In this document: positions 2,750 to 40,781 of the stretch, in pieces | How the letters are laid out: each line of letters starts with the position of its first letter | Position numbering within the stretch: the stretch's first letter is position 1 | DNA from: a virus | Reading direction: 5' to 3' (one strand) | Virus record (IMG/VR): IMGVR_UViG_3300010158_000045 | Coordinates: 1 to 64,000 of that record | DNA length: 64,000 nucleotides | Position numbers and translations under genes: made by a program | Notes under the pieces: generated by a model | Databases searched by the model: none | What the model saw: the letters and a program-made list of their open reading frames with translations, nothing else | Told to the model about the DNA's origin: nothing

Positions 2750-2908
2750 ATGGCAGATACTCCTACGGAATTAACACCAAGCATAGAACCAGTTATAGGA
2801 ACAGCAATAGAAGTTCCAAAAGACTATTGGAAAGCCTACTCAACAAATAAAGATGTGTTTGATAGACCCCCGCCTCCTGCGGACTCAGAAGATCAAGCCA
2901 ATGCTTAA
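2750..2908 (+). CDS. Small acidic/proline-rich protein in baseplate operon (52 aa)
   Basis: A short frame starting ATG at 2750, preceded by a plausible ribosome-binding site (AAGAG, about 7 bp upstream). It ends 14 bp before the gp25 gene. The 52-residue product begins MADTPTELTPSIEP and contains DYWKAYSTNKDVFDRPPPP, so it is acidic and Pro-rich with one aromatic patch. It fills an otherwise empty gap between two structural genes on the same strand. Its function is unknown. Confidence 0.55.
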   Translation: MADTPTELTPSIEPVIGTAIEVPKDYWKAYSTNKDVFDRPPPPADSEDQANA

Positions 2909-2922
2909 CATAAGGAATAATC

Positions 2923-3366
2923 ATGGCATCAAACAGTAATTTATACGATAAAATTGTTTTACCAGCAGTTAGACAACTCACAGATAGCCCTACAAAAATG
3001 TATAAAGGGTTTAGCACTATTAGTGGCAATACAGAAAACTATAATCTTTATGATTTTGATTTAATCAAACAAGACATATTAAATCATTTTCATGTCAGAC
3101 AAGGGGAAAGACTGATGAACCCGGCTTTCGGATGCGCCATTTGGGATATATTATTCGAGCCATTAACCGAGGCTGTGAAAGATATCGTGCTGAAAAATGT
3201 TAATACTATAGTTAATTATGATCCTAGAGTACAAGCAGAAAATGTTATAGTAACTTCTTATGATACTGGAATTCAGATTGAATTAACCTTGCTTTATGTG
3301 CCCTATAACCTACAACAAACGTTACAATTACAATTTGACCAGACCAACGGCTTAGTAGTGCGATAA
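2923..3366 (+). CDS. gp25: Baseplate wedge subunit gp25
   Basis: 147 residues, close to T4 gp25 (132). It has the GPW/gp25 family pattern: an N-terminal YDFDLIKQDILNHFHVRQGERL segment (the R-Q-G-E-R-L motif is highly conserved), then PAFGCAIWDILFEPLTEAV, and a C-terminal two-strand segment GIQIELTLLYVPYNLQQTL. In T4, gp25 holds the wedge core with gp6 and connects to the sheath. A clear ribosome-binding site (AAGGAATAA) lies just upstream of the ATG. The next gene is gp6, the same order as in other T4-like phages. Confidence 0.92.
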   Translation: MASNSNLYDKIVLPAVRQLTDSPTKMYKGFSTISGNTENYNLYDFDLIKQDILNHFHVRQGERLMNPAFGCAIWDILFEPLTEAVKDIVLKNVNTIVNYDPRVQAENVIVTSYDTGIQIELTLLYVPYNLQQTLQLQFDQTNGLVVR

Positions 3367-3387
3367 ACTACGCACATATTCTTTACA

Positions 3388-3395
3388 AATAAATA
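3388..3395 (+). promoter_or_regulatory. T4 late promoter-like octamer (AATAAATA)
   Basis: AATAAATA lies 18 bp before the gp6 ATG, in the 47 bp gap after gp25. It fits the NATAAATA form of the T4 late promoter read by gp55-type sigma factors. No -35 element is expected. The match to known motifs is direct; function is inferred. Confidence 0.5.
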
Positions 3396-3413
3396 CACTA
3401 CTAGGACAATTAA

Positions 3414-6400
3414 ATGAGCTCAACTGATAGACAAAATAATCTGCTAATTAATCAAGATTGGAAAAAAATATACCAGTCTTTTAAAAATGCTGATTTTCAA
3501 AGTTATGATTTTGAAAATTTACGCAGAACTATGATTACGTATTTGCGCACAAATTACCCAGAAGATTTTAATGACTATATTGAAAGCTCAGAATATTTGG
3601 CTTTAATAGATTTAGTAGCATTTGTTGGGCAAAGTGTTGCCTTCCGTGTGGACTTAAATGCCCGTGAAAATTTTCTAGAACTAGCGGAGCGCCGGGACAG
3701 TGTATTACGTTTAGCACGTTTAATTAGTTACAATGCTAAAAGAAATATACCTGCACAAGGGTTGTTGAAATTTACTACTATTCGTAGCACAGAAACTATT
3801 GTTGACAGCAACGGCAGAAATTTGTCAGGACAAGTAGTAACTTGGAATGACCCTGCAAATGCCAACTGGTATGATCAATTTATTAAAATAATAAATGCGG
3901 CCATGCCTTCAACACAACAATTTGGAAATCCATCTGCTAAAGATACAATTTACGGAATTCCAACAAGTCAGTATCGTTTCCAAACTACTAGTACTAATGT
4001 TCCTGTTTTCAGTTTTACTAAAACAGTAGCAGGGCGTTCAATGAACTTTGAAATCACCAGCACAACTTTTAGTGGTCAACAATACATTTATGAAGAAGCT
4101 CCTAAGTTAGGAAACAAACTTGCTTGCATTTATCGAGATGACGGCCAAGGCGCTGGCAGTAATAGCAACGGATTTTTCTTGAATTTTACACAGGGCACAT
4201 TGAACATTGGTGCATTTACAATTACACATCCTAGCAGTAATGAAAGTGTAGATATCAACACAACAAACATTAACAATAACGATGTTTGGTTATATAGATT
4301 AAATCAAAATGGCGCCGAGTCGGAATTATGGACCCCAGTGCCAACTATATCAGGTAATAACATTATCTATAATAGTTTAAATAAAAACATAAAAAACATT
4401 TATAATGTTATTACACGAGCAAGTGACACTATTAGCTTGGCATTTAGCGATGGTGTATTTGGAAATCTTCCATTAGGAGATTTTAGAACATACTATAGAG
4501 TTAGTAATGGATTATCTTATGTAGTAAACCCTGCTGATGTTCGTAATGTTACAATATCAGTTCCTTATACTAGCAGAAAAGGCCAAACTGAAACTCTATC
4601 TATCACGATGAATTTACAAACTAGTGTTTCAAATTCTGCTGTGTCTGAAACTAATGCTAGTATTAAAGCCAATGCACCGCAAACATATTATACACAAAAT
4701 AGAATGATAACTGCCGAGGATTATAATATTAGTCCTCTATCAGTTACCCAGCAAGTTGCCAAGGTAAAAAGTATTAATAGAACGTCTAGCGGTATTAGTA
4801 GATACTTTGATTTAAAAGACCCGACTGGAAAATATAGTTCGACAAATTTATATGCAAATGATGGAATTATATATCAAGATTTCTATTCTCAAATTACTAC
4901 GTTCCAGTACGCAACTAAAGTTGATATTGAAGGAATAATTTATAATACAATTTATGAGTTATTACAAACTATTGATTTAAGAAATTTTTATTACAATAAT
5001 TTTATTAATTTTTTAACTACTAGTCTTAATATTAGTTGGTACCAAGCTAGCTCTACAAGCTCTAGCAGTACTGGGTACATTGGAAATATTGTTGGGGCGA
5101 TCCCCTTTCCAGTGGGCGGATACACTGCAACGGATTTAAAATATTTAACGCCTGGCTCATTGATTAGGTTTGTAGCCCCAACTGGTTACTATTTTGATAA
5201 AACAAATTCAAACAAATTAGTTTTTGGATCAACCGGAGCATTAGGCAGTGCGGATTATCTGTGGGCAGAAGTAGTTAGCGTTACCGGTAACGGAGTTCCA
5301 ACTGTAGGCATTCCAGGCCCTATAATGTTGAATACAATCGTACCCGGCTCCGCAGTTATTTCACAAATTATTCCAAAATTTTCAACTACATTAAATTCTA
5401 CAGTTATTACTACAATGATAGATTTAATTTTTAGTAATAGACCATTTGGACTACGTTACGATGGTACTACGCAAAATTGGCAAATTATTTTTGAAACTAA
5501 TTTAAATCAATCATCTGCATTTACACTAGCAAAACAAGCAGATGCAACCAACACCAATCAAGATTCAAGCTGGATGTTATTGTTTACAACTGATAACGAA
5601 ACATATACAATTACTACTCGATTATTAAGATACATTTTTGAAAGCGATTCCGAACTATCATTTTATTTTGATGACGATTTAACTATCTACGATAACACTA
5701 CTAATTCAACAGTTAGAGATCAAATTAAAATTTTAAATATAAATCGACAACCTACAAAAGTTTATCCTTTTACTGAAGATTATGTATGGGATGTAACATC
5801 GGCTTATAGAGGCTTAGATGGCTATATTGATAATAAAAAAATTGTTTTATCATTTGCGGATACAGATTATAACGGTGTAGTAGATAATCCTCAGCTATTT
5901 TTAGACATAGTAGATCCAACTACTTCTCCAACAACCAAATATATTGTTCAACAAAAATATTTTATTTCTACAGGCCAAGAAGATTATCGATATGTTGCTA
6001 ATACTAATAATCTTATGATTGTTCTTAATTCAGAAAGTGAGCTGTTGTCTTACAACAACTATAAAGACGGCCAATATTTTTACTTTACTAGTACAGGTGT
6101 AGTAAAACAATTAAATATTGTAACAGGATCATTAATTCCAACATTAGATTACAAGGTCTTTGTTGGTAGAGATAATTTGAAATTTCAATACACCCATAGT
6201 GCAAACTATGAAAGTAGAATTGATCCAGGTGTAAGCAATATTATGGATGTTTACGTATTAACTAAGTCGTACGATACATCTTTTAGACAATGGGTAGACG
6301 GTGCTCCAATATCAGAACCATTACCACCTAGTTCAGATGAACTTAGTAATTTAATTGGCGCAACATTGGATGTTATTAAACCAATATCAGATGAAATCAT

Positions 6401-6857
6401 ATACCACCCTGTAAGTTATAGGGCATTGTTTGGAGTTTCTGCAAGTTCTGATTTACAAGCTAAATTTAAAGTTACGAAAAATATAAATTCAGTAGTGTCG
6501 GATAATGATATACAGTCTAGAATAATCACAGCAATTAATCAATTTTTTACATTGGATAATTGGAATTTTGGAGACACGTTTTATTTTACAGAGTTATCGA
6601 CTTATGTAATGAATCAGTTAGCACCGGACATAACAAACTTTATCATTGTGCCTACACAAAGCGGATCATATTTTGGTAGTTTATTTGAAATATCCTGTCC
6701 TAGCGACCAGATTTTTATTAGCACTGCAACAGTTGCTAATATAGAAATTATCACCGGCATTACTAGCGGAAATATTAAATCAGTTACCGGAACAGCTCTT
6801 AACTCTGTCTCCAATCAAACTATTACTAGCGCAACATACGGAAATCTAAATGGCTGA
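3414..6857 (+). CDS. gp6: Baseplate wedge subunit gp6
   Basis: 1147 residues, larger than T4 gp6 (660). The N-terminus has the gp6/J-like pattern: DWKKIYQSFKNADFQSYDFE, then MITYLRTNYPEDFNDYIESSEY and a helical stretch ALIDLVAFVGQSVAFRVDLNARENFLELAERRDSV, characteristic of T4-like gp6. The segment QTYYTQNRMITAEDYN (about residue 420) is the usual conserved core of baseplate J/gp6 proteins. The extra length is mostly beta-rich sequence in the second half. gp6 forms the wedge ring that controls sheath contraction. The gene ends with an 8 bp overlap with the giant gene downstream. Confidence 0.9.
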   Translation: MSSTDRQNNLLINQDWKKIYQSFKNADFQSYDFENLRRTMITYLRTNYPEDFNDYIESSEYLALIDLVAFVGQSVAFRVDLNARENFLELAERRDSVLRLARLISYNAKRNIPAQGLLKFTTIRSTETIVDSNGRNLSGQVVTWNDPANANWYDQFIKIINAAMPSTQQFGNPSAKDTIYGIPTSQYRFQTTSTNVPVFSFTKTVAGRSMNFEITSTTFSGQQYIYEEAPKLGNKLACIYRDDGQGAGSNSNGFFLNFTQGTLNIGAFTITHPSSNESVDINTTNINNNDVWLYRLNQNGAESELWTPVPTISGNNIIYNSLNKNIKNIYNVITRASDTISLAFSDGVFGNLPLGDFRTYYRVSNGLSYVVNPADVRNVTISVPYTSRKGQTETLSITMNLQTSVSNSAVSETNASIKANAPQTYYTQNRMITAEDYNISPLSVTQQVAKVKSINRTSSGISRYFDLKDPTGKYSSTNLYANDGIIYQDFYSQITTFQYATKVDIEGIIYNTIYELLQTIDLRNFYYNNFINFLTTSLNISWYQASSTSSSSTGYIGNIVGAIPFPVGGYTATDLKYLTPGSLIRFVAPTGYYFDKTNSNKLVFGSTGALGSADYLWAEVVSVTGNGVPTVGIPGPIMLNTIVPGSAVISQIIPKFSTTLNSTVITTMIDLIFSNRPFGLRYDGTTQNWQIIFETNLNQSSAFTLAKQADATNTNQDSSWMLLFTTDNETYTITTRLLRYIFESDSELSFYFDDDLTIYDNTTNSTVRDQIKILNINRQPTKVYPFTEDYVWDVTSAYRGLDGYIDNKKIVLSFADTDYNGVVDNPQLFLDIVDPTTSPTTKYIVQQKYFISTGQEDYRYVANTNNLMIVLNSESELLSYNNYKDGQYFYFTSTGVVKQLNIVTGSLIPTLDYKVFVGRDNLKFQYTHSANYESRIDPGVSNIMDVYVLTKSYDTSFRQWVDGAPISEPLPPSSDELSNLIGATLDVIKPISDEIIYHPVSYRALFGVSASSDLQAKFKVTKNINSVVSDNDIQSRIITAINQFFTLDNWNFGDTFYFTELSTYVMNQLAPDITNFIIVPTQSGSYFGSLFEISCPSDQIFISTATVANIEIITGITSGNIKSVTGTALNSVSNQTITSATYGNLNG

Positions 6858-9800
6858 TATTACTAATCCTTTTGGAGATAAAAAACCGCTGTCGGTTGAA
6901 CTTTTACCTAATTTTTATAAAACAGATCCTAATAAAAGATTTTTACAAGCAACTGTAGATCAGTTAATACAGCCTGGCGTTGTTAAAAAAATTAATGGAT
7001 TTATAGGAAGACAGGATTCTAAAGCTACGGTCGGTACTGATATTTTTCTCAACGCGGCTACTACAGACAGACAAAATTATCAATTAGAACCTGGGATCAC
7101 TGTTAACGATACATTAGGAAATAATTTATTTTTTAAAGACTATATTGATTACATAAATCAGTTATCAGTCCTAGGCGCAAACACATCCAATCACGCGAGA
7201 ATTAACAAAGAAGAATTCTACAGTTGGGATCCGCATATTGATTGGGATAAATTTGTTAATTTCCAAAATTATTATTGGTTGCCGTACGGCCCAGAAACTA
7301 TCAGGGTTTACGGACAGCAAGCAACTGCAATTAGTACATTCAATATTGATTTGCAAGTTGAAGGCTCTAATAATCAGTTAGTCTTTACTCCCGATGGCCT
7401 TGCACCCAATCCAGTGATTAAACTGTATAGGGGGCAGACTTATACATTTAATATTAACACTCCAAACAATCCTATTAGTATTAGATTAGCAAGATCGTTG
7501 CAATCTTTAGACAAGTATAATACTGGAGTTAGTCAGCAATCTGTTGATTCGGGCACTATAATTTTTAAAGTTCCTACAGATGCTCCTAATATTTTGTACT
7601 ATCAAAGCGATAGAGAATTAACGTTAGGTGGCGCATTTCAAATTTTATCTATTGATCAAGATAGTTATATTGATGTTGAATCGGAAATTTTAGGAAAAGC
7701 TACATATACACTTAGTAATGGAACCGCATTAAGTAACGGCATGAAAGTAACATTTGCTGGAAATGTGTCACCTGCTAAGTATGCTTCTGGAGAGTTTTAC
7801 GTCGAAGGTGTTGGCTCATCAATTGTATTGATAAACAAACAAGTTTTAGAAGTCAGTAGCGTTTATACAGTAGAACAAACTATACTATTTGATGCTACTC
7901 CTTTTGACAGCACGGCATTTAGTGATACAAGCGCCTTTGCACAATTAAAAGATTATATTACAATTAATCGTGCTAGCACGGATCATAATCCGTGGAGTCG
8001 ATACAATCGTTGGTTTCATAAAGATGTAATAGCTGCCAGCGCACATTTTAACGGGAATTATCCTGATACTGATCAACTGCAACGAGCAATTCGTCCTATT
8101 ATAGAATTTCAGGCTAATTTAAAATTATTTAATTTTGGCACATCAGCCGTAGCCGACATTGATTTAATAGATAACTTTACAACAGATGCATTTTCAATTA
8201 TAGAAGGTAGTAAGGGATATAATGTTGACAGCATAGCATTAAGTCAAGGCCAGAAAATATTGTTTACAGCGGACACTGACAAATTTGTAAAAAATAATAT
8301 CTATCAAGTTGAATTTGTTGATGTAAAACACCTAAACTCTGGTAGTCGTCAACTTCATTTAGTAAAAATAGCAGAACCCCAATTAAATCAAGTTGTGTTA
8401 GTGCGAGCTGGTACGACTAATCAAGGCTTAATGTATTGGTATAACGGCACGACTTGGATTAAAACTCAAACAAAAACTGCAATAAATCAAGCGCCGTTAT
8501 TTGACGTTGTAGATAGTAACGGAAAAAGTTTTAGTGATTTAACTGTTTATGAAGGATCTACATTTGCAGGAACAAAGATTTTTTCTTATAAAATTTCTTC
8601 AACTGGTACAGTTGATCCTTATTTAAAATTTCCATTAACTTATAAAAATATTGCAAATATTGGCGACATTGTTTTTAATTTCAATTTAATATTAGATTCA
8701 TTTATATACAAAGATGTAACAACAGTTATTAATAAAAATATTTCTACAGGATTTTTAAGTTATAAAACATACTCTGGTAATACAGAGTATGTTAACGGCT
8801 GGCAAAAATGTAGTAATACCGCGGTTCAAGCTGGAATAAGAATTTACAAAAATTCTAATATTACTAATAATTTCAATATAGATGTTTTTGATGACACTGA
8901 CAACTTGGATGATTTAGAAGTAAAAGTTTTTATCAACGGTATATTTTTAAATAGAAATTTTTATTCTATTATTGACGCCGGACAATATAAGCAAGTATTA
9001 TTAAAAACTTCTATTGGATTAACGGATGTTTTAACAATTAAAACATATTCAAATAAACCAATTAATTCTAACGGTCATTATGAAATTCCTATTAATTTAC
9101 AAAATAATCCGTTAAACGATGCCATAGAAAATTTTACTCTAGGCGAAGTTATTGATCATTTTAGTTCTATAGTAAGCAACATACCTTTGAAGGTGTTGTC
9201 ATCTGTTGCTGAAAATACAGTTTCAAATCAAAGTTTTGATCCCGATTACGTTAACGTCAGGGATTTAGGCAATATAACACAATACGGTACAAAATTTGTG
9301 CAACATAGTGCTCCCGCAAGTTTGAATTTGTATCATATTACGTCACAAGCAAATAATGCAATTAAATCAATTGAACAAAGCAGAGACGATTATATCAAAT
9401 TTAAAAAATTATTTGTGTCTGTTGCTGAAACTATTAGTAATAATAATATTCCTCGCAAACAAGTTGACGAGATTTTAAAAATTATCAACTCTGACAAGAT
9501 TAATTCTCAGCCATATTATTTTAGTGATATGTCTCCTTACGGTAGTAGCGTAAGCACAACAATTGAAGTTATTGATTACAGAATAAAAAATTATCCACTT
9601 AATAATATTTTTAATTTAGACACGCTATCTGAAAAGGCAGTGGGTGTATATGTAAACGATGTGCAATTAATTTACGGACAAGATTACACATTTAATTTGC
9701 AAGGTTTTGTGACTATAACATATTCATTAAGCAACGGCGATTCCGTGTCTATATACGAATACGACAGCACAGACGGATGCTTTATACCTGAAACTCCTAC

Positions 9801-12800
9801 CAAATTAGGAATTTTTCCAAAATTTGCTCCAAAGATTTATTTAGATACAACATTAATAACGCCACGTACGATGATACAAGGTCACGACGGCAGTCAGATT
9901 CTTGCATACAATGATTATCGAGATAATATTATTCTTGAACTGGAAAAACGAATTTTTAATAATATAAAAATAAGTTATGATGCTGATTTATTTGATATAG
10001 ATGATATTATTCCAAGTTATACTAGAAAAACTGATTATTCGTTAGCCGAATATAATCAAGTAATAGCTCCTAGTTTTTATAAATGGATGTCTTTGATAGA
10101 TCAAGATTACACAAAAAATACATCGTTCAGTCCTGCAAATCCTTTTACATATAATTATATAGGCACAGCATCGCCTACTGGTACAGACATACCCGGATAT
10201 TGGAGAGGAATATTTAGATATTTTTATAATACTGATCGTCCTAATTTATGTCCTTGGGAAATGCTAGGGTTTACTTTAGAACCAGAGTGGTGGACTACAG
10301 CATACGGACCAAGCCCTTATACCAGCGACAATTTAGTAATGTGGTCAGATATTTCTAAAGGATTAATTAAAGGCGATGGCACTTCTCCGCCGGTCATAAA
10401 TCCTAAACATATTAAATCATTTTTATTAAATCACATTCCAGTAGATGAATCTGGCAATTTAATTAGCCCGGCAGCCGCAGGCCTTGCTATCGGAGCTTTA
10501 ACTACCTCTATAGAAAATAATTTTAAATTTGGAGATATTGGCCCAGTTGAATCTGCATGGAGAAGAAGTAGTCATTATCCGTTTAGTGTATTATTAGCTA
10601 ACATGTTGTTGTTTCCAGCCCATGCTTTTTCTGTACTGTTAGATAGATCCAGAGTTGTTAAAAATATATCTAATCAAATAATTTATTCACCTACTGGGTT
10701 AGTAATTAAACCTAGCGATGTGATATTACCAAGCATTGCTTCTAATAGTGTTAGAGTACAAACTTCTGGTATTATAAATTATATTGTAAATTATATTTTA
10801 AGTGATAACCTTAAATCATATACTGCATACAAATACGATTTAACTAATATTCAGACTAATTTAAGTCATCGAATTGGCGGATTTACTAGCAAACAAAAAT
10901 TTAATTTAATATTAGACAGTAAAACACCGCTTAGTACAAATAGCGTATTTGTGCCGCAGGAAGACTATACTGTTATTTTAAATAAATCCAGTCCTATTAA
11001 AAAGATTTGTTACAGCGGTGTAGTAATAACTAAACTTGCTAACGGATTTGAAGTACGGGGGTATACTACTACCCAACCTTATTTTGTGTACTACCCATAT
11101 TTACAATCTGGGACAACAGTAACTATCGGCGGAATATCTGAAGCATATACAGTTTGGACTCCAAACGAAAACTATGTTGCAGGCAAAATTGTTCGATACG
11201 TTAATCAATACTATAGAGTTAAAACATCGCATGTGTCTACAGATACGATACAGACTCAGTATTTTGCATCATTAGGAAGTTTGCCAATCATTGGCGGAAA
11301 ATCTGCTGTCTTTAGAAAAACATGGGACCGATCAACTAAGATAACTGTTCCTTATGGAACACAATTTGAAACCATACAAGAAGTAGTAGATTTTTTATTA
11401 GGCTACGGCGAATATTTAAAAGATCAAGGATTCATCTTTGATGACTTTAATGCTAATTTACAAATTGTTACCAATTGGGAAACAAGTGCCAAAGAATTTT
11501 TATTTTGGACCACACAAAACTGGAGTTCTGGTCAGGATAAATGGGACGACTGGGTTCCTAGTAAAGGATTTGCATACAATGACATTGTTAGATACAATGG
11601 AGAATATTATAAAGCTATTCAAAATATACTACCTAACATTGTTTTTCAAATTGCCGGCTTTGCAAAACTTGACGGTTTAAATACACAAGGTAATTCTGTA
11701 TTAAGTTTAAGCCCAGCCGCCGATAAAATAATTTTTAACACTACGCTGAGTGTAGTCGATGACATTCGTAATCAATTTAATGGATACGAAATTTATAAAG
11801 TAGATGGCACGCCACTCGAAGCAATTTTTATAAACTCTTATAGATCTGATAACGCAGTAAGTTATAGTCCTAGGACAGGTGACGGTATATACGGCGCAAC
11901 GTTTTATCTAATACAGCACGAACATGTGGTGCTATTAAACAATAATACAATGTTCAATGATACATTGTATAACCCGCCTACTGGCTATAAACAAGATCGC
12001 ATCAAAGTTTCAGGCTATGTTAGCACTGACTGGTATGGCGGTTTTGATATTCCAGGATTTATTTTAGATTTAGCAAAAATAACAGAGTGGCAAACTTGGA
12101 CTGATTATGATCTAGGCGACATTGTTAAACACAAAGAATTTTATTATACCGCTAGTAAATTTTTAGCAGGATCTGCTAAATTTGTTGACAATGATTGGAT
12201 CAAATTAAACGAAAAACCATCGACACAATTATTACCAAACTGGACATATAAAGCTGGACAGTTTACAGATTTCTATAGTCTCGATAGTGAAAACTTTGAT
12301 AGCGGCCAACAACGAGTGGCACAACACCTTATTGGATATCAAAAACGACAATACTTAGATAATATTATTCAAGATGATGTTAGCGAATACAAATTCTATC
12401 AAGGAATGATTCGTGAAAAAGGTACTCAAAATGTACTTAATAAATTGTTTGACGTACTCAGCGCCGACAATAAAGAAAGTCTAACATTTTATGAAGAGTG
12501 GGCAATTCGTGTTGGTCAGTACGGAGCAAATAACGCATTTGAAAATATTGAATTTACGTTAGATCGAACAACGTTTACTAATAATCCTCAAGGCTTTGAG
12601 CTAGTAAATGCAGTTGAATATAATGTTGTTAAAGATTTTATTATTAGACAAACTCCTAATGACATATATTTAAAACCAGCAGGTTATAATTCATCACCGT
12701 GGCCTTTAAATAAAAATTATCAAAAGTTTTTAAATAATTCGGGCCATGTAAGAAAATCAGAAGTTTTTAAAAGTCTTAAAACTTTAGGAGACATAACAGG

Positions 12801-15800
12801 AATAGATCCTGAAACTGGCGCAAAATACAATATAACAACTTTTGATAACAACTGTTATGTGCATGTTGCGTTTGATGCAAGCTCTTGGAATGTTTATAAA
12901 TTTACAGATTTACAAATTTCAATAACGAATGTTTCTTATGCAAATTCTATTTTAACATTAACTACAAGAAATTTAATAAATCTATCGGTAGGTGATTATA
13001 TAGGCATAAGTCAAGTAGACATACTAACAGGATTTTATCAAGTATCATCTGTAGAATTAAACTCTTTTACACTAGACGCTAAGATTTCTGGTTTCCCAAC
13101 ACCGTTTACCCAAGCAGGACAGTTGGTAATTTATGGGTTTGTTAGTCAGCGTGTAGCAAAACTTGATGATTTAGACAATATTATTACCGCGCAACCGTCT
13201 ACTGGCGACAAAGTTTGGGTAGACGATAATGGCTTTGGAAAATGGGCTACGTTAGAGTACTCGCTAGTCTATAATAAAACTGAGATAGCTAACACGTTTC
13301 CAGCTGATAATTTAAATTTTGGAAAAAATTTAATAATTAACAAAGACGGAAATATAGCAGTAACCGCAATGAGTACTGGCGAAATTCGTATATGGGATAA
13401 GGCCGGGCAAGCAAGTTCTTGGGTTGAGCGCCAAACAATATCCCTGCCAGTTGAATTAGTAGGAACTAATACACCCAATAATTTATCAACAGTGTTGGCA
13501 ATCAGTGATGATGCAAAATGGCTAGCAGTAGGTTCACCGCTGGCTGGCAATATTCCAACAAAATACAAAGGTGAACTTTCAGTAGTAAGATATTATCAGG
13601 TAAAGGATGTTGTCTCTTTTACAAATTCTAGTTCGGTTGCTGAATTTTATGAGTCACTGAGCTTGCATTACGGCGGGTATAATGCTACCACACAAATGCC
13701 TGATCTTACTAAGTGGAAAAAAATACCGTATCTTACTTTAGATGTTAATGGAACACCGTCTTATCTTGCTAACGAAGGTGTAGTTTCTTTATATCAAAAA
13801 GATGGAAACAATATTTTTACTTTGGTAGATCACATTGTTAGCCCAACATCTAGAGACACAACTACATTTACACCTAACGGTTTTGTAAGTGCTAATCTCA
13901 CTGCTGATGAACAATTTGGATCGAGTATTGTTTTTGCTGACAATGTGTTATGGGTATCCGCTCCAGGATATAAAACATTAGATTATACATCTGTCTACCA
14001 ACATTTTTATGCCCCATATATCAAACAAGGCATAGTGAGAAAATTTGCTTACGATCAAGTTATATTTGCAACGTCGGCATATAACCCTGTTGGTTCGTCG
14101 GGCACAACGGTTGTAGTAACATCCACGATAGGTATCCTTCCGAACATGGCGGTGACCGGCACAGGATTTACTAATCAATATGTAGTTTCAGTTATAGACT
14201 CAACACGATTACAGCTCAGTGTTGCCCCAACCAGCACACCCTCAGGAGAACTTAATTTTTCTAACACCTATTGGCATTTAGATTTTACTTTGTCTGGCCA
14301 TCGCGGCCCAATAGGCACTACAAATTTCCCTCAATCGTTTATTCGAAACGGAACAACAGCCACAGTAAAATTTGCTATAGGAACTGAGTTTGATTATACT
14401 TCGCCCTTGTATACAGTTGGCAGTCAGATAACTGTTTCAGGAACTCCTTACAATACGTTTAACGGAACATTTACGGTAACTAGCTGTAGCACTACAGAGT
14501 TAACTTACACCGTGGCAACTACTGCCGACACAGCCGATAACACTCCTTATAATCGCCGGGCTCCGGGCGGCTTTGGTGGCGGTGCTGTCCTATTTGATGC
14601 TGTTGTTCAACCTACAAATAGCTACGGAAATAAATTACGTGTTAGTCTAGATAACAGTAAATTAGTAGTGTCCGGCATTTCAGAAGGTGCATATGGCACT
14701 GTTTATATCTATAATCGTCCTAACTCTGCAACTACTTCTCCAGAATATTTTGTCATTATGGGTGCTGATTATTTCTTTGGTGTAGGTTTGGATTTAAGTT
14801 CTAGTGGAAATTATCTAGCTATTGGAGATATTACAACTAGTGTTTCTAAAATAAATCAAGGAAGTGTTAGTATTTTTAAATTTAATACTGAGTCTGAAAT
14901 ATTTGAACCTTATCAAGTTCTAACCAACCATGCATCAAAATCTTCTGGATATTTCGGAACTAATTTAGGATTCATGAACGGGGAACAAACACTAGTAATT
15001 TATAGCCAAGACGAAGATACTAGTCAAAATACTAAATTTGATGCAAAATTAACTACCTTTGATAAACGATCTACAGTGTTTACAGCAACACATACAAACA
15101 GTGGAAGAATTGATATCTATGACCGTTACTTGACAAAATGGGTTTATAGCGACACTTTAGAAACTACTAATGAAGAATTTGACGGCTTCGGGCTAGGATT
15201 TGCTGTGGGTGCAAATCATATTTTAGTAGGAGCACCATTTAGTCTAGATTCCATATTTAAATCAGGAAAAATTTACGACTACTATAAAAAATTAAATGCG
15301 TTAAATTGGAATGTAGCACACTACGAGATAGAAAAACCAGATCCAAAGAAAATTAAAAAGGCGTTTTTATACAATAAAGCAACTGGAACTTTAATCAAAT
15401 ACTTAGATGTTATCGATGTATCGCAGGGAAAAATTGCCGGCGCTGCCGAAGAAGAAATAAAATTCAAAACATTCTATGATCCTGCAATATATTCAGAGTC
15501 TACTGGTGTGTATACTGTAGTCCAAGATAGCCAACAATCTTGGACTAAATCTCAAGTAGGCATGCTATGGTGGAATTTATCTACAGCTAAATTTATTGAT
15601 TCTTATGATAACGATGTTGTATACAGAAATACTAACTGGAATACACTAGCAACCGGCGCCAGCATTGATATTTACGAATGGGTAGAATCTACAATATTAC
15701 CATCGGTGTGGGATAAACGAGCAGACACTACAGCTGGACTTGCCGCGAATATCAGTGGAACTAGTTTATACGGAGATGCAGTTTATAGTAAGGTAACTAA

Positions 15801-18800
15801 GTTTGATACCATTGCACAAACCAACAAATATACCTATTATTTTTGGGTCAAAAATAAAAAAATAATACCTAATGTTTCTGGTAGATATTTGTCAGCGTTG
15901 GATGTTTCATTGCTTATTTCAAATCCAAGAGGATATAACTATTCTTATTTGGCGTTAACTGGCGCAAACAGTTTTAGCTTAGTAAACGTTGCAAATGATC
16001 TAATTGATGTAAACGTGGTATTGTCTGTAGAGTATTGGACTATAGATAAACTTGACCAGAATATTCATAGTCAGTATAAATTAATTAGTAATGATGCCAA
16101 CACTATATTGCCAACAATAATAGAACAAAAATGGGCCGATAGTTTATGCGGGAATGATTTATTCGGAAGACTAGTCCCAGATCCTGCCCTGCCTCCAAAA
16201 TTAAAATACGGTATTCAAAACAGACCAAGACAAAGCATGTTTGTAAACCGATTTGAAGCACTTAAAGAATTAGCAGACCGTGTAAATTCAACATTAGCTC
16301 TTAATCAAATAGTAAAAACTAGAAATATTTCACGTTTAAAATCTTACGATAAACAGCCTAGTAAGAATACAGGACTTTACGACTTAGTTAAAACAACAGA
16401 AGTTAGTATTCCTTTAATTAACACAGGAGCATTTAGTAAACCAATATTAGGCGAACCAACTATTTCAAACGGAAAAATTATTGATATTCCAATAATTAAT
16501 GCAGGACGAGGCTATTTGTTTGCTCCTTACATTACTATAGTGGGAACTGGAATAGGCGCAAAAGTTCAATCAGTAATTAATGCCGCAGGACAAATTACAG
16601 GTGTTACTATTATAAATTCAGGCGAAGGTTATACTGTTAATACCACTGCATCTATAAGAAATTTTTCTGTATTAATTGAAAGTGATAGTGAAGCAGAAGG
16701 ATTTTGGAGCATCTATTCATATGAACCTTCTACAAAAATCTGGTCTAGAATACAAACACAAAGCTATGATGTAAGAAATTTCTGGGAATATGCTGATTGG
16801 TATGCTCCGGGTTTTAATAAATTTTCTCCTATTGATTATTCTGTGGACAACTATTACGGATTAAACACAATAACTACAGAATTAACACAAATTGTTAAAA
16901 TTAGAAACACAAATGCTGGTGGCTGGAGTTTACTAGAAAAATATGCTAACTCAAAATCTTCAGATTGGACACAATCGTATCGTGTTGTAGGGTTACAAGA
17001 GGGTACGATACAATTGAAATCTTCTTTATATCAAAGTATTAATACACCACTAGGATATGACGGATCAATATACGATAATGTTGTATATGATAATAGCCCA
17101 AATATTGAATTACGTATTATATTAGAAACTTTAAAAGATGATATTCTAATTGGGAATTTAAAACAAGATTATTTAAATTTATTTTTTACTACAATAAGGT
17201 ATGCACTGAGCGAACAGTTGTATCTTGATTGGATTTTTAAAACAAGTTTTATTAAATCAACGCATAATGTTGGATTATTAGACCAACCAGTGACATATCG
17301 TCCTGATAATTTAAGTAATTTCCAAGACTACATTTCAGAAGTTGTTCCTTACAGAACAACAATTAGAGAGTATATTAGTTCTCATACTGCTATAGATCAA
17401 GAAAACACCTTAATATCAGACTTTGATTTACCGCCAATTTTTGAAGATAATTCAAATACAGTAATTAATCCTTATGTTAAGAATGGCAGTATGATAGTAG
17501 ACGATGCTAACATACAAGTTTATCCTTGGAAAAATTGGCTACAAAATGTAGGATTTACTATAACTAGTATTAATATAGTCGACGGAGGCTCTGGGTATAT
17601 TTCAGAACCAGTAGTATCAATCACTAGCGATTCTGGTAGCGGAGCTACAGCAAGAGCATTTTTTGCAAATGGAATAGTTAACAGAATTACATTACTAACT
17701 CCGGGAGCCGGCTACTTATCGGCTCCAACAATTACAATATCGGGTGGTTTGTCGGTAGGCGGAACGCAGGCCACGGCCGCCGCAGTTATTGGAAAAGGCG
17801 TAGTGAGATCTAACTTGATTAAAATTAAATTTGATAGAACTACTTATTCTTATTATGTAACACAACTTTCAGTCACTCAAACATTTGCCGGACGATCTGG
17901 CATTGTACAATTCCAATTAAAATGGGCACCAGACATTAAAATTGGAAATAGTTCTGTAACTGTCGACGGTGTAGTAGTGCTACGAGATTTATACAAGTTA
18001 ACAATAATAACTTCCAAAAAGAATAACACCACACAATATTCTGGTTTAATAACATTCTTGACAGCACCAGCGACTGGTTCAGTCGTCATTGTTAATTACA
18101 ATAAAGACGAATCTTTGTTAAATGCTGCCGACAGAATACAATATTACTATCAATCAAGTAAGAACACAGTTGGATCGGATCTTGCTCAGCTGATGACGGG
18201 GATAGATTATGGTGGAGTCATTATAGATGGACTAAGTTTTGATGTAGCAACTGGCTGGGGCACATTGCCTTATTACAGCGACAAGTGGGACAGTGCTGAT
18301 CCAACATTTAATGATTACATTGTAACAGTGAGAGCCAATACTCATTCGTTTACATTGCCGTATACTCCTTCAACTGGCACACAACTCAATGTCTACTACA
18401 TACAAAAAAATGTAGATGTGGGCGTTTCTGATGGAGTAAATTTAAACTATCCTTTCTCTTTACGGGATACTTTTGTGGAAACAAGCGCAGAATATGATGC
18501 AGTCTCGGTAACTATACAAACTTCTTACGTTGCTCCACCTACTTATATTGCTTCTACCACAATAAGAGTTACCAGCACCGTTGGAATACGTCCAGGAATG
18601 TCAGTGTTTGGCACAGGGTTTGTGGTCGATCCAAAAACTCTTGTGCCATTGCAAAAAGTGATTAGTGTTAATTCAGTCAACAGTACTGTGTTGCTAACTT
18701 CTCCACCAAATGTGCGCCCAGTTGGAGTGTTATCATTTACTTTTAATATTCCCGGTTCTTTTAATTTATACGTTGACAATGCTGACGGTGTATTGGTAGG

Positions 18801-21800
18801 GGATCTAGTATCCACAACAGTTTCATCCTGTTTTGGCAATGATACTGTTGTGGTTGGAGTGGACACAGTTAATAAAATAGTAAAACTGAATCAAATAATT
18901 TACAGGATTGTTCCTTACAATACTACTATAACTTTCTCACGTAAGATCAGTGTAGTTTTTTATAATTACAATGCTATATTGCCATCACCGGCAGCAATTG
19001 GAACTAGAATTATAATAACAGGTGTATTAGATTCTATAAGATTAGACGATCCATACTATGGAGTTGATTTTGATCCAGCGCACCCTGATAATCCGTATCA
19101 AACAAATCAGTCAGCTGTAATGGTTTCTCCAGTAGGTGATAATAATACCAATACTTTTGTCATACCTGACACATTTGATGTGTACGACGGTGATCAATTT
19201 ATTATAAGACAAAGCACCAGTGACGGATCAATTAAACCTCTTGAGCAAGACTATGACACTGCGTTATCTGGCGGCAATATGGTATATAGTACAGCAACGG
19301 GTATATCGCCGGATGAGATTATCGTGGACGGTGATGATCTAATTAGCCCAACTACTAGTCCTGCCCCAGAAGAAGTAGTTCCCGGTCAAATAGTTGATGC
19401 ACTAGCTATTAAAGTGTATGACCAACCTAATTCTGGAAGTGCAAATATTAAAGTAGACAAGTATTTTGCCGACGGTAAGACTAAATCATTTGCAATTACA
19501 CAGACATTTAATAATGAAAGAGCAATTATTGTTAAAAATAATAATGTAATTAGTTCATATACTACAGATTACGTTGTTGATTATAAGAATAAATTAGTTA
19601 ATTTTACTTTTGCTCCAAATGCTGGAAATATTATTAGTATATTCAGTTTTGGATTTAACGGTTCTAATATAATAGACATTGATTCTTTTGTGGGTGATGG
19701 ATCAACTACTGAATTTTTAACCAAAGCACCTTGGCTAACATACGAAACAGGTCTTGTATACGTAAACGGAGTTGCGGCATCAGTTGAATTATTCAAAACA
19801 GATTCAACATATGATTCGGCAAACCGTACAGGAATTAGATTTGGACTTGCTCCATTAGTTGATTCTGTAATCAATTATGTAATTGTTAGTGGAACTCAAC
19901 AAACATTTAGTATAGCCAAGACTGAAACAATTGTTGCCGACGGTGTTAAAAATACATATAATTTATCATACCCAGTGGGAAATACTTTGCCGGCTGAATC
20001 TAATATAATTGTACGAGTAGATAATACGATTTTACCAAATCCAACTAATCAGTATTTTACTATTGAAAATAATAATCTTAGCTACACTATTGATAAGGCA
20101 AGAGCACTTCCTTACAGTATCATAATCAGTAATATTCTAGTATATGTATCTGGAAAAAAATTAAATTTAGGAACAGACTATGTTATCGACTTAGGCGGCA
20201 TAACTGTAAATATAACTAAACAAAATTATAATATATACAAAGGTAAGACGTTAGCTATTAGTATTATACAAACTAACGGCTATACATATTTGCCAGATAC
20301 TCAGCAAATTTTATTTAATACTGTCTACACTCCTTCAAACACTATTGAAGTAATGAGTTTTTATAATCACGATATTTTAGATATTGAAAGGACCGCATTT
20401 AATATAACCACTAACATATCTTATACACAAGATACAGTAGCGTATTTTACCTATACTGGTCTTGGAGCAGGAATTCTACCGGTTGATAGAACAGTACTTA
20501 GTGATGCTTATGTATGGGTAATGAAGAATAATGTGTTGTTAACTCCGTCCGTTGACTATAAGTTGTCAGACAATAAAAAATCTATAATACTAGAAATTAC
20601 ACCAGCTCGTAATGATGTGTACTCTTTGATGACGTTTAACAATAACGTTCTAGTTCCTGGAATTTCGTATATGCAATTTAAAGATATGCTTAACAGAACA
20701 CATTTTAAGAGATTAAGTAAAAATAAACAAACAAAATTAGCAACAGATTTACGTTATAACGATATTGCTATTCAGTTAATTGATGCTAGCAATTTTGATT
20801 TACCAAACACTACACTAAACAAACCGGGTGTGATTGAAATTTACGGAGAACGTATCGAGTTTTATCAAATTGAAGGTAATACATTAAGCCAGTTACGACG
20901 TGGCACACACGGAACTGGAACTCCGAGAATCCATCCTATAGGAACTCCAGTGCAAGATATTGGGCCAAGTGAAACACTGCCGTATTCGGAATCTTCATTA
21001 GTAACAACAGTGATTAGCACTGGTACTAATATTGTGCCTTTACCGTTTGTACCGACAAAATCTGGTATCAAACAGTGGTTTACAAAATTGGGATTCACAC
21101 TCAAAGACAACCATAATGGGGCAAATGGATACACAATCAACGATGTGGTAATTTATAACAATTTGTATTATGTAAATATAAAAACCTATGTGTTTGATAA
21201 GAAGAATATAATTCTTCCCACAAACAAAGTTTATTGGGAACTATACGATACCAAAGTTCCTGTGGGATTTGAACAATGCGACGAGCTTGAAGTTTTCATT
21301 GCAGGGTATAATGACGCAATAGAGTGGATTGAAAAAACAAGTTATACAGTTGGTGTAATCGTTAAAGTGGCAAGTTATACCTATAGATGCATTTCGGCGC
21401 ACACTAGCTCAACAAACTTCCTAAATGATAAAGCCAATTGGCAATTCTTTGTTGGAAATTTAAGATTGAAAAAACAACCTTATAAAGTACATAATGAAAC
21501 AATATCTCCATATAGCCCTGCCGGAGATGTTAAGCTGGATGCAGAATTTGCAGTAGACGGTGTTAGTCCAAGTTTAAGATTAACAAATTTAATACCTGCT
21601 GGCACTCAGATTACTGTAGTAAGACGAAAAGGCACAAGATGGGATAGTTCGTTAAATATTCAATATGATGATAATGCTATTGCTAATTTCTTAAAAGCAA
21701 CACCTGGAATTTGGTATCATGATAAAGTTGTATTGACAACAAGTACAACATTTACGGGAACTTTTGATAATAGTAGTACAGGATTCGATGATAGTACAGA

Positions 21801-21810
21801 TACGTGGTAA
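6850..21810 (+). CDS. Giant (4986 aa) baseplate/tail structural protein, mosaic of beta domains
   Basis: One uninterrupted frame of almost 15 kb. The N-terminus (SVELLPNFYKTDPNKRFLQ, LDQ-type helix, NFQNYYWLPYGP) matches the large structural protein that follows gp6 in aquatic T4-like phages, in the place of T4 gp7. Visible segments: five short repeats resembling CBM5/12 (ChtBD3) carbohydrate-binding modules at about 1434-1462, 1567-1594, 1745-1771, 4751-4801 and 4824-4871 (W-x4-Y-x2-G-D-x-V pattern); a propeller-like array with FG-GAP-type strands at about 2155-2815 (for example ILVGAPFSLD); G-x-GY-x3-P repeats at about 3221-3264 and 3579-3652; repeated DG-x-T-x2-F units at about 4190-4400; and an RRGTHGTGTPRIHPIGTPVQD motif near 4690. 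No separate gp8 or gp10 gene follows, so part of their role may be inside this protein. That fusion idea is inference. Confidence 0.8.
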   Translation: MADITNPFGDKKPLSVELLPNFYKTDPNKRFLQATVDQLIQPGVVKKINGFIGRQDSKATVGTDIFLNAATTDRQNYQLEPGITVNDTLGNNLFFKDYIDYINQLSVLGANTSNHARINKEEFYSWDPHIDWDKFVNFQNYYWLPYGPETIRVYGQQATAISTFNIDLQVEGSNNQLVFTPDGLAPNPVIKLYRGQTYTFNINTPNNPISIRLARSLQSLDKYNTGVSQQSVDSGTIIFKVPTDAPNILYYQSDRELTLGGAFQILSIDQDSYIDVESEILGKATYTLSNGTALSNGMKVTFAGNVSPAKYASGEFYVEGVGSSIVLINKQVLEVSSVYTVEQTILFDATPFDSTAFSDTSAFAQLKDYITINRASTDHNPWSRYNRWFHKDVIAASAHFNGNYPDTDQLQRAIRPIIEFQANLKLFNFGTSAVADIDLIDNFTTDAFSIIEGSKGYNVDSIALSQGQKILFTADTDKFVKNNIYQVEFVDVKHLNSGSRQLHLVKIAEPQLNQVVLVRAGTTNQGLMYWYNGTTWIKTQTKTAINQAPLFDVVDSNGKSFSDLTVYEGSTFAGTKIFSYKISSTGTVDPYLKFPLTYKNIANIGDIVFNFNLILDSFIYKDVTTVINKNISTGFLSYKTYSGNTEYVNGWQKCSNTAVQAGIRIYKNSNITNNFNIDVFDDTDNLDDLEVKVFINGIFLNRNFYSIIDAGQYKQVLLKTSIGLTDVLTIKTYSNKPINSNGHYEIPINLQNNPLNDAIENFTLGEVIDHFSSIVSNIPLKVLSSVAENTVSNQSFDPDYVNVRDLGNITQYGTKFVQHSAPASLNLYHITSQANNAIKSIEQSRDDYIKFKKLFVSVAETISNNNIPRKQVDEILKIINSDKINSQPYYFSDMSPYGSSVSTTIEVIDYRIKNYPLNNIFNLDTLSEKAVGVYVNDVQLIYGQDYTFNLQGFVTITYSLSNGDSVSIYEYDSTDGCFIPETPTKLGIFPKFAPKIYLDTTLITPRTMIQGHDGSQILAYNDYRDNIILELEKRIFNNIKISYDADLFDIDDIIPSYTRKTDYSLAEYNQVIAPSFYKWMSLIDQDYTKNTSFSPANPFTYNYIGTASPTGTDIPGYWRGIFRYFYNTDRPNLCPWEMLGFTLEPEWWTTAYGPSPYTSDNLVMWSDISKGLIKGDGTSPPVINPKHIKSFLLNHIPVDESGNLISPAAAGLAIGALTTSIENNFKFGDIGPVESAWRRSSHYPFSVLLANMLLFPAHAFSVLLDRSRVVKNISNQIIYSPTGLVIKPSDVILPSIASNSVRVQTSGIINYIVNYILSDNLKSYTAYKYDLTNIQTNLSHRIGGFTSKQKFNLILDSKTPLSTNSVFVPQEDYTVILNKSSPIKKICYSGVVITKLANGFEVRGYTTTQPYFVYYPYLQSGTTVTIGGISEAYTVWTPNENYVAGKIVRYVNQYYRVKTSHVSTDTIQTQYFASLGSLPIIGGKSAVFRKTWDRSTKITVPYGTQFETIQEVVDFLLGYGEYLKDQGFIFDDFNANLQIVTNWETSAKEFLFWTTQNWSSGQDKWDDWVPSKGFAYNDIVRYNGEYYKAIQNILPNIVFQIAGFAKLDGLNTQGNSVLSLSPAADKIIFNTTLSVVDDIRNQFNGYEIYKVDGTPLEAIFINSYRSDNAVSYSPRTGDGIYGATFYLIQHEHVVLLNNNTMFNDTLYNPPTGYKQDRIKVSGYVSTDWYGGFDIPGFILDLAKITEWQTWTDYDLGDIVKHKEFYYTASKFLAGSAKFVDNDWIKLNEKPSTQLLPNWTYKAGQFTDFYSLDSENFDSGQQRVAQHLIGYQKRQYLDNIIQDDVSEYKFYQGMIREKGTQNVLNKLFDVLSADNKESLTFYEEWAIRVGQYGANNAFENIEFTLDRTTFTNNPQGFELVNAVEYNVVKDFIIRQTPNDIYLKPAGYNSSPWPLNKNYQKFLNNSGHVRKSEVFKSLKTLGDITGIDPETGAKYNITTFDNNCYVHVAFDASSWNVYKFTDLQISITNVSYANSILTLTTRNLINLSVGDYIGISQVDILTGFYQVSSVELNSFTLDAKISGFPTPFTQAGQLVIYGFVSQRVAKLDDLDNIITAQPSTGDKVWVDDNGFGKWATLEYSLVYNKTEIANTFPADNLNFGKNLIINKDGNIAVTAMSTGEIRIWDKAGQASSWVERQTISLPVELVGTNTPNNLSTVLAISDDAKWLAVGSPLAGNIPTKYKGELSVVRYYQVKDVVSFTNSSSVAEFYESLSLHYGGYNATTQMPDLTKWKKIPYLTLDVNGTPSYLANEGVVSLYQKDGNNIFTLVDHIVSPTSRDTTTFTPNGFVSANLTADEQFGSSIVFADNVLWVSAPGYKTLDYTSVYQHFYAPYIKQGIVRKFAYDQVIFATSAYNPVGSSGTTVVVTSTIGILPNMAVTGTGFTNQYVVSVIDSTRLQLSVAPTSTPSGELNFSNTYWHLDFTLSGHRGPIGTTNFPQSFIRNGTTATVKFAIGTEFDYTSPLYTVGSQITVSGTPYNTFNGTFTVTSCSTTELTYTVATTADTADNTPYNRRAPGGFGGGAVLFDAVVQPTNSYGNKLRVSLDNSKLVVSGISEGAYGTVYIYNRPNSATTSPEYFVIMGADYFFGVGLDLSSSGNYLAIGDITTSVSKINQGSVSIFKFNTESEIFEPYQVLTNHASKSSGYFGTNLGFMNGEQTLVIYSQDEDTSQNTKFDAKLTTFDKRSTVFTATHTNSGRIDIYDRYLTKWVYSDTLETTNEEFDGFGLGFAVGANHILVGAPFSLDSIFKSGKIYDYYKKLNALNWNVAHYEIEKPDPKKIKKAFLYNKATGTLIKYLDVIDVSQGKIAGAAEEEIKFKTFYDPAIYSESTGVYTVVQDSQQSWTKSQVGMLWWNLSTAKFIDSYDNDVVYRNTNWNTLATGASIDIYEWVESTILPSVWDKRADTTAGLAANISGTSLYGDAVYSKVTKFDTIAQTNKYTYYFWVKNKKIIPNVSGRYLSALDVSLLISNPRGYNYSYLALTGANSFSLVNVANDLIDVNVVLSVEYWTIDKLDQNIHSQYKLISNDANTILPTIIEQKWADSLCGNDLFGRLVPDPALPPKLKYGIQNRPRQSMFVNRFEALKELADRVNSTLALNQIVKTRNISRLKSYDKQPSKNTGLYDLVKTTEVSIPLINTGAFSKPILGEPTISNGKIIDIPIINAGRGYLFAPYITIVGTGIGAKVQSVINAAGQITGVTIINSGEGYTVNTTASIRNFSVLIESDSEAEGFWSIYSYEPSTKIWSRIQTQSYDVRNFWEYADWYAPGFNKFSPIDYSVDNYYGLNTITTELTQIVKIRNTNAGGWSLLEKYANSKSSDWTQSYRVVGLQEGTIQLKSSLYQSINTPLGYDGSIYDNVVYDNSPNIELRIILETLKDDILIGNLKQDYLNLFFTTIRYALSEQLYLDWIFKTSFIKSTHNVGLLDQPVTYRPDNLSNFQDYISEVVPYRTTIREYISSHTAIDQENTLISDFDLPPIFEDNSNTVINPYVKNGSMIVDDANIQVYPWKNWLQNVGFTITSINIVDGGSGYISEPVVSITSDSGSGATARAFFANGIVNRITLLTPGAGYLSAPTITISGGLSVGGTQATAAAVIGKGVVRSNLIKIKFDRTTYSYYVTQLSVTQTFAGRSGIVQFQLKWAPDIKIGNSSVTVDGVVVLRDLYKLTIITSKKNNTTQYSGLITFLTAPATGSVVIVNYNKDESLLNAADRIQYYYQSSKNTVGSDLAQLMTGIDYGGVIIDGLSFDVATGWGTLPYYSDKWDSADPTFNDYIVTVRANTHSFTLPYTPSTGTQLNVYYIQKNVDVGVSDGVNLNYPFSLRDTFVETSAEYDAVSVTIQTSYVAPPTYIASTTIRVTSTVGIRPGMSVFGTGFVVDPKTLVPLQKVISVNSVNSTVLLTSPPNVRPVGVLSFTFNIPGSFNLYVDNADGVLVGDLVSTTVSSCFGNDTVVVGVDTVNKIVKLNQIIYRIVPYNTTITFSRKISVVFYNYNAILPSPAAIGTRIIITGVLDSIRLDDPYYGVDFDPAHPDNPYQTNQSAVMVSPVGDNNTNTFVIPDTFDVYDGDQFIIRQSTSDGSIKPLEQDYDTALSGGNMVYSTATGISPDEIIVDGDDLISPTTSPAPEEVVPGQIVDALAIKVYDQPNSGSANIKVDKYFADGKTKSFAITQTFNNERAIIVKNNNVISSYTTDYVVDYKNKLVNFTFAPNAGNIISIFSFGFNGSNIIDIDSFVGDGSTTEFLTKAPWLTYETGLVYVNGVAASVELFKTDSTYDSANRTGIRFGLAPLVDSVINYVIVSGTQQTFSIAKTETIVADGVKNTYNLSYPVGNTLPAESNIIVRVDNTILPNPTNQYFTIENNNLSYTIDKARALPYSIIISNILVYVSGKKLNLGTDYVIDLGGITVNITKQNYNIYKGKTLAISIIQTNGYTYLPDTQQILFNTVYTPSNTIEVMSFYNHDILDIERTAFNITTNISYTQDTVAYFTYTGLGAGILPVDRTVLSDAYVWVMKNNVLLTPSVDYKLSDNKKSIILEITPARNDVYSLMTFNNNVLVPGISYMQFKDMLNRTHFKRLSKNKQTKLATDLRYNDIAIQLIDASNFDLPNTTLNKPGVIEIYGERIEFYQIEGNTLSQLRRGTHGTGTPRIHPIGTPVQDIGPSETLPYSESSLVTTVISTGTNIVPLPFVPTKSGIKQWFTKLGFTLKDNHNGANGYTINDVVIYNNLYYVNIKTYVFDKKNIILPTNKVYWELYDTKVPVGFEQCDELEVFIAGYNDAIEWIEKTSYTVGVIVKVASYTYRCISAHTSSTNFLNDKANWQFFVGNLRLKKQPYKVHNETISPYSPAGDVKLDAEFAVDGVSPSLRLTNLIPAGTQITVVRRKGTRWDSSLNIQYDDNAIANFLKATPGIWYHDKVVLTTSTTFTGTFDNSSTGFDDSTDTW

Positions 21811-26129: not shown

Positions 26130-26747
26130 ATGCAGAGTAAAGATCTAACCGGAATCCACATTGAAGGACATATTAAAATATGGGATCCTGAAAGTAAGGA
26201 AGTCTATATTAATAAACGTAACGCAATTCATTACGAAAACATTAGTACAGCCCTAGCCAACAGTTTATCCAACAATAACGATGGCGGATTTATCAGCCAA
26301 ATGTCGTTTGGTAACGGCGGAACCGCAATCGATCCAACTGGAATTATTACATATTTTACTCCGAATAGTACAGGTAGTAATGCTGGTTTATACAATGAAA
26401 CATATCATAAAATAGTCAATCAAAATTCTAGTAGCAATGCAGATCCTACAAGAAATTACATGGAAGTTAGACACGTCACCGGCACAAATTATAGTGACAT
26501 ATTTGTGACTTGTTTATTAGATTATGGCGATGGAAATGATGCAGGACAAAGCGCATTTGATAATACAAATAATAATAACAGTACGTTTGTATTTGACGAG
26601 CTTGGATTAAAAAGTTACAGTGCTACTGGAAATCCGTTATTATTAACACACGTAATTTTCCACCCTGTACAAAAAAGCCTTAATAGACTTATACAAATTG
26701 ATTATACAGTAAGGCTTCAAAGTTTAACCGGCCTAGTGTCAGTTTAA
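26130..26747 (+). CDS. Conserved phage virion structural protein (205 aa)
   Basis: 205 residues, beginning SKDLTGIHIEGHIKIWDPES and containing ISQMSFGNGGTAIDPTG. Proteins with this opening and the FGNGG motif occur near tail fibres in T4-like aquatic phages, but I cannot assign a name. It is beta-rich with Asn/Gly-rich loops and ends with strands ALTHVIFHPVQKSLNRLIQIDYTV-like in character. A strong ribosome-binding site (AAAGAGAG) lies just upstream. It stands 10 bp before the first collar fibre gene and is probably a fibre connector or baseplate component. Confidence 0.6.
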   Translation: MQSKDLTGIHIEGHIKIWDPESKEVYINKRNAIHYENISTALANSLSNNNDGGFISQMSFGNGGTAIDPTGIITYFTPNSTGSNAGLYNETYHKIVNQNSSSNADPTRNYMEVRHVTGTNYSDIFVTCLLDYGDGNDAGQSAFDNTNNNNSTFVFDELGLKSYSATGNPLLLTHVIFHPVQKSLNRLIQIDYTVRLQSLTGLVSV

Positions 26748-30632: not shown

Positions 30633-30642
30633 TGCAAAATAG

Positions 30643-30650
30643 AATAAATA
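30643..30650 (+). promoter_or_regulatory. T4 late promoter-like octamer (AATAAATA)
   Basis: AATAAATA lies 23 bp before the ATG at 30674, in the 41 bp gap between two fibre genes. It resembles the site before gp6. Function is inferred. Confidence 0.45.
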
Positions 30651-30673
30651 CACTAGAATAAGGAACGGGCGAC

Positions 30674-40752: not shown

Positions 40753-40781
40753 ATTTGCTCCTGATTGTTTACTATGTATAT

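Follow-up and report, generated by a model that had tools for sequence, protein, structure and literature searches.

The window analysed here, a stretch of 64,000 nucleotides, comes from a virus record (G000) of 89,397 bases. In it, the gene for a gp6-type baseplate wedge subunit is followed by one open reading frame of 4986 codons, and the question raised by this locus is whether the product takes the part of T4 gp7, combines several T4 baseplate proteins in one chain, or lies outside the wedge altogether. In T4, gp7 is the baseplate wedge initiator within the (gp6)2-gp7 heterotrimer.

A single gene belonging to a known family

The ORF extends from 6850 to 21810 (features are on the + strand unless marked otherwise), starts with ATG, has no internal stops and encodes a product of 555 kDa. 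At the random-codon stop frequency of 6.7% given by the composition of the window, the chance of an ORF of 4986 codons is about 1e-150. Alignment with the homologue at locus L088 gave 72% amino acid identity across 4771 codons, and the differences at codon positions 1, 2 and 3 (0.23, 0.15 and 0.45) are biased to the third position, as for a protein that would be under purifying selection. The single 15 kb gene for 4986 residues proposed in a preliminary description of this DNA is thus confirmed by the uninterrupted frame, its negligible chance probability and the codon-position bias.

The giant matched phrog_10938 (PHROGs annotation 'virion structural protein', category 'head and packaging') at E=0 with 1027.7 bits over five stretches, and six of its ten segments matched this family independently. 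Relatives were detected by tblastn in 67 phage records, mostly of jumbo phages and at ~24-32% identity, including PA5oct-like Pseudomonas, Agrobacterium, Sinorhizobium, Salicola, Cronobacter and Erwinia phages as well as Serratia, Escherichia, Salmonella, Klebsiella, Xanthomonas and Vibrio jumbo phages. At least 596 contig stretches in IMG/VR encode a relative of the N-terminus of the giant, the complete ORFs there being 3883 to 5402 aa long, and eight loci were found in bacterial genome bins (mainly marine MAGs, with some phage-like contigs of 153-335 kb). The gene is genuine and its product is a large new member of an already known family, to which no function has been assigned; length by itself is not new, because the family is already in databases, larger versions included. 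The published accounts examined, on RaK2, on Atu_ph07 and on jumbo phages as a group, describe no function for the giant. The protein is among the longest of tailed phages, and its family, which is common in viromes from both fresh and marine waters, is annotated merely as a virion structural protein.

The Rak2-like and jumbo phage members with names are RaK2 ORF070 (3326 aa), PBECO4 gp538 (3333 aa), GAP32_230 (3341 aa), XacN1 ORF325 (3313 aa), PA5oct gp355 (3857 aa), Atu_ph07 gp180 (4449 aa) and CBB_236. The window giant has in common with them its slot right after gp25-gp6, two conserved cores and huge size, but it is longer (4986 vs 3313-4449 aa). A shorter version at locus L027 (2996 aa) was considered as a natural split and rejected: where it stops, a second frame continues the protein, which suggests a frameshift or a misassembly.

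Gene order and evidence from virions of relatives

Upstream of the giant, the window encodes a gp5-type hub/lysozyme protein, a gp25-type baseplate wedge subunit (2923..3366; phrog_261/43) and the gp6-type subunit of 1147 aa (3414..6857; phrog_10646, E=6e-295; phrog_219, the family of T4 gp6, E=7e-16), and the ATG of the giant overlaps the final 8 nt of the gp6 gene. The order gp25-gp6-giant also occurs in the annotated maps of PA5oct, Atu_ph07, RaK2, PBECO4, GAP32, XacN1 and Vibrio phage 2.275.O. Across 150 loci, gp6 lies no more than 300 nt upstream of the giant in 149; the lone miss is XacN1, with a distance of 338 nt by the start chosen here and 66 nt by annotation. A real exception is Salicola phage SCTP-2, in whose genome the giant is far from gp6. 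The giant thus stands in the slot expected for gp7, as had been described.

Mass spectrometry of relatives indicates that proteins of this family are part of the virion. The PA5oct record marks the homologue of the giant with ESI-MS/MS. In phAPEC6, gp245 (381.88 kDa) was represented by 17 unique peptides with 7.6% coverage and is tabulated right after gp244, a 'baseplate wedge' protein (PMC7247149); judged by size and order, gp245 would be the PBECO4-type giant. CBB_236, which adjoins the gp6 homologue CBB_237, was represented by 21 peptides with 7.7% coverage (PMC5259590). By analogy, the giant of the window phage, itself known from a metagenome record, would also be a virion component.

Because the family is found in the virions of relatives, a baseplate-wedge giant in the place of gp7 is the best reading of the locus, and we consider the giant to be probably a tail-baseplate virion protein standing in for T4 gp7. 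Against this reading speak the PHROGs category, the distance between the giant and gp6 in SCTP-2 and the comparisons with gp7 profiles and with wedge protein folds given below. The preliminary description had suggested a fused or greatly expanded wedge or peripheral baseplate component; the gp6 linkage and the virion data of relatives make the wedge or peripheral assignment very likely, while the fusion of gp7, gp8 and gp10 did not hold (see below).

Domain composition of the giant

The alignment of 41 giants revealed two conserved cores, core A at residues 1-1960 (6850..12729), which is common to the Rak2-like, PA5oct and Atu_ph07 giants, and core B at residues 2851-3850 (15400..18399), together with two length-variable stretches at ~2000-2850 and 3850-4600. 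Several distinct types of beta domain were detected, in agreement with the preliminary description: a cupredoxin-like/YHYH-type domain, CBM5/12 modules, a probable propeller and GSGY repeats. The first of these occupies residues 158-266 (7321..7647; phrog_677, E=2e-13), and Foldseek with the AF2 model of residues 1-1190 matched it to cupredoxins (2dv6, probability 1.0); the UniProt name of relatives, 'YHYH domain-containing protein', is consistent with it. By alignment occupancy, this domain is missing from the RaK2, PBECO4 and GAP32 homologues.

Three modules resemble CBM5/12 (chitin-binding type 3) domains. The module at residues 1436-1465 (11155..11244) matched PF02839 at E=6e-4, below the cut-off, and its model matched chitin-binding domains such as 1ed7 in Foldseek (rmsd 1.7); that at residues 1568-1592 (11551..11625) passed the cut-off with E=2.8e-6 for the segment; the C-terminal one at residues 4825-4856 (21322..21417) reached E=8e-9 with the whole protein. 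Residues 2150-2850 (13297..15399), recognized as length-variable by alignment occupancy and largely absent from RaK2-type homologues, carry repeated VGAP/VGSP/IGD motifs and by motif probably form an FG-GAP-like beta-propeller (Pfam FG-GAP_2, E=0.16). The cupredoxin-like domain and the propeller-like region therefore both distinguish the window giant from RaK2-type members, which largely lack them.

Two GSGY repeat modules lie in core B. Module 1 (residues 3202-3274; 16453..16671) matched phrog_701 (6136 positions; E=8e-12) and phrog_2885 (4179 positions, 'baseplate wedge subunit'; E=2.5e-11), and module 2 (residues 3570-3654; 17557..17811) matched phrog_701 (E=1.5e-14) and phrog_19630 (E=5e-13), so that both are similar to families of other giant phage structural proteins and 'baseplate wedge subunit' proteins. 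Searched for as a DNA pattern, the GSGY motif gave no match. Residues 4203-4264 (19456..19641) resemble the N-terminal module of the T7 tail fibre (PF03906, E=3e-4, below the cut-off). Profile searches of PDB sequences with three alignments matched nothing beyond chitin-binding domains, and these weakly, and one tailspike repeat; with the model of residues 960-2010, Foldseek matched strongly just the family itself in BFVD, and small chitin-binding domains in PDB.

Comparison with T4 wedge proteins and cyanophage giants

The giant has the same gene position after gp6 as T4 gp7 (1032 aa), but T4 gp7 is five times smaller, and no significant similarity between the two was seen in profiles or, for the residues modelled, in fold. 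When nine segments of the giant were compared by hhalign with T4 gp6-gp12, nothing convincing was found (best E ~0.05), and the values against T4 gp7 were 0.22-0.91, none above the threshold. The same procedure worked for the neighbouring genes, which served as positive controls: the window gp6 matched T4 gp6 at E=4e-4, the N-terminus of the next gene matched T4 gp10 at E=2.5e-4, and the collar fibre matched T4 gp12 at E=1.7e-5. When AF2 models, one for residues 1-1190 and one for residues 960-2010, were compared by Foldseek, the matches listed included no T4 baseplate wedge protein. Profiles of gp7 and gp8 matched nothing in the record of the window, which is possibly a fragment, and nothing in ten relatives, half of them cultured jumbo phages and half large contigs, with a positive T4 control.

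T4-like cyanophages likewise have a giant gene behind gp6, whose product measures 7022 aa in S-MbCM6 (L231:6393-27461), 7124 in P-SSM7, 6817 in ACG-2014d, 6273 in S-CAM22, 4225 in ACG-2014f and 4067 in SynMITS9220M01. Some of them are annotated as 'baseplate wedge initiator' and others as structural protein. Smaller proteins in the gp7 slot are those of S-CRM01 (1454 aa, 'gp7-like'), HTVC008M (1016 aa) and Stenotrophomonas phage YB07 (503 aa). All these lengths are taken from annotated coordinates, and a position directly behind gp6 was observed for those genes whose start was included in the DNA retrieved. The length of the T4-like gp7-slot protein varies ~14-fold, from YB07 to P-SSM7 (loci L231, L304, L308 and L307). 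The cyanophage giants resemble the window giant in their huge size, in following gp6 and in having both GSGY and FG-GAP-like repeats; however, the core motif of T4 gp7 can still be recognised in them, and their similarity to the window giant is confined to the repeat modules.

The first alternative is that the giant is a true homologue of gp7, in which insertions interrupt the core (an LPxF helix and a YxxKGT motif), like that of the cyanophage giants, and accreted modules make up the rest. Besides the slot after gp6, the giants of 4000-7000 residues in cyanophages, which bear the T4 gp7 motif, speak for it. The motif in the cores of the cyanophage-slot proteins is FYxxKGxxxSxxxLFxxLxxE, and Y-x-x-K/R-G-T with the following helix occurs in T4, HTVC008M, YB07 and cyanophages. 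When the T4 and cyanophage gp7 core was compared with 98 blocks of the family of the window giant, the two blocks holding residues 1851-1876 (12400..12477), a candidate remnant of the gp7 core with a KGT motif, ranked first and second (scores 22.3 and 21.5), and the next best elsewhere scored 15.8-16.0. The maximum among 581 shuffled or reversed control blocks was 19.2 and the P-value of the motif is ~0.001 per block and ~0.1 corrected, over ~26 columns, after exclusion of seven degenerate column-shuffled controls (scores near 130 over 4-28 columns), with which the KGT motif would not stand out at all.

Against homology are this corrected P-value and the few columns behind it, and also a tblastn search with the cyanophage core, whose listed matches at E<0.1 include no Rak2-like phage. 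For the opening half of the gp7 core, the best match was at residues 801-890 (E=6e-4) and not at the N-terminus, as would be expected, so the idea of a split core is only half borne out; no fold match was obtained, and the KGT region was modelled at low pLDDT. The sequence evidence for descent from T4 gp7 may be called suggestive, which leaves homology plausible but unproven, and we place it somewhat short of an even chance. That the giant works in the place of gp7 is the safer claim. With similar reserve, the Rak2-type and cyanophage giants may be viewed as one gp7 superfamily, in which an expandable wedge scaffold of ~500 aa (YB07) to >7000 aa takes in binding modules and encodes much of the outer baseplate in one chain instead of separate gp8-type proteins.

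A fibre, a fusion or a wedge protein

The second alternative is a fibre, whisker or adhesin outside the wedge that is merely encoded beside gp6. CBM5/12, T7-fibre-N-like and GSGY modules occur in fibre proteins too, and Rak2-like phages bear tail whiskers (PMC5259590). The strict gp6 linkage of the giant and its strongly conserved core A (at residues 1801-1900, ~82% identity with near relatives) are, however, atypical of host-range fibres, and no other candidate for gp7 was found, so we regard this alternative as unlikely.

The following gene bears on the proposed fusion. The preliminary description had held that no gp10 gene follows the giant, but the next ORF (21829..24492), encoding a fibre protein of 887 aa, begins with a domain of the type found at the N-terminus of T4 gp9/gp10 (PF07880, E=2.4e-4, which misses the Pfam cut-off). 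A second N-terminal match of this type lies outside the window near the record end (record 88988-89098, - strand; L163; E=8.3e-5). Although gp8 went undetected elsewhere in the record and in the ten relatives, a chain of gp7, gp8 and gp10 is very improbable, because it is the following gene that carries the gp9/gp10-type N-terminus, with collar fibres encoded further on, no segment of the giant resembles gp8 or gp10 in the segment-wise profile search that had been proposed, and in S-MbCM6 genes for gp9 and gp8 are annotated in addition to the giant of 7022 aa.

For a baseplate-wedge giant in the place of gp7, the following course can be envisaged. The giant would be made right after gp6 from the overlapping start and would join the gp6 wedge through the conserved cores (residues 1-1960 and 2851-3850). 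Its CBM5/12, cupredoxin-like, propeller and GSGY modules would form an outer, variable part of the baseplate, and these modules may be turned towards the cell surface or provide docking sites for the fibres of the genes just downstream. Such a placement, with chitin-binding-type modules in the baseplate, would help explain how large phages have outer baseplates without a recognisable gp8.

Downstream fibre and peptidase genes

The downstream neighbours of the window giant, the 887 aa fibre gene and then a peptidase gene, differ from those of the named jumbo homologues. The peptidase (24494-26080, +), encoded by the second gene downstream of the giant, is a kumamolisin-type S53 (sedolisin) serine-carboxyl peptidase with a propeptide (phmmer 1t1e, E=8.9e-50; Pfam Peptidase_S8 and Pro-kuma_activ). 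Its tetrad, Glu237, Asp241, Asp317 and Ser425, aligns with that of kumamolisin and is invariant in all 32 sequences compared. No match was found among 50,697 phage records; homologues were found at 31 IMG/VR loci (L270-L300), and a gene like that for the 887 aa fibre protein is just upstream of the S53 gene in 30 of the 31, the remaining locus starting at a contig edge. The pair is also found apart from the giant, some loci having none in the DNA examined. The two genes look like a fibre-plus-protease cassette, and the peptidase may possibly act in fibre maturation or as a host-surface protease.

Next comes a gene for a protein of 205 aa (26130..26747; phrog_11259), a conserved neighbour in relatives. 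It is the commonest follower of the giant, being downstream in most loci with room for it, including PA5oct (where it is marked ESI-MS/MS), Atu_ph07 and Vibrio phage 2.275.O. The gp12-like tail fibre with a collar domain (26758..28962; PF07484, E=1.4e-15) is the first of three fibre genes at 26758-32164 (+; 734, 556 and 496 aa) with a common N-terminal domain (phrog_14394/15511), which is probably a common attachment domain. The last of them, of 496 aa, has a weak match to the Peptidase_G2 autocleavage domain.

Other genes in the window

Three further loci were observed on the - strand. At 39568-41918, a gene for a MoxR-type AAA ATPase adjoins one for a DUF2201 metallopeptidase/VWA-like protein, a pairing as in MoxR-VWA chaperone-like systems. 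At 53311-55097, adjacent dehydrogenase-like genes (ADH_N and GFO_IDH_MocA) are possible sugar-metabolism genes. At 62025-63677, a LysM-domain protein of 550 aa (E=5.8e-13) is encoded, which is a possible cell-wall-binding protein or lysin.
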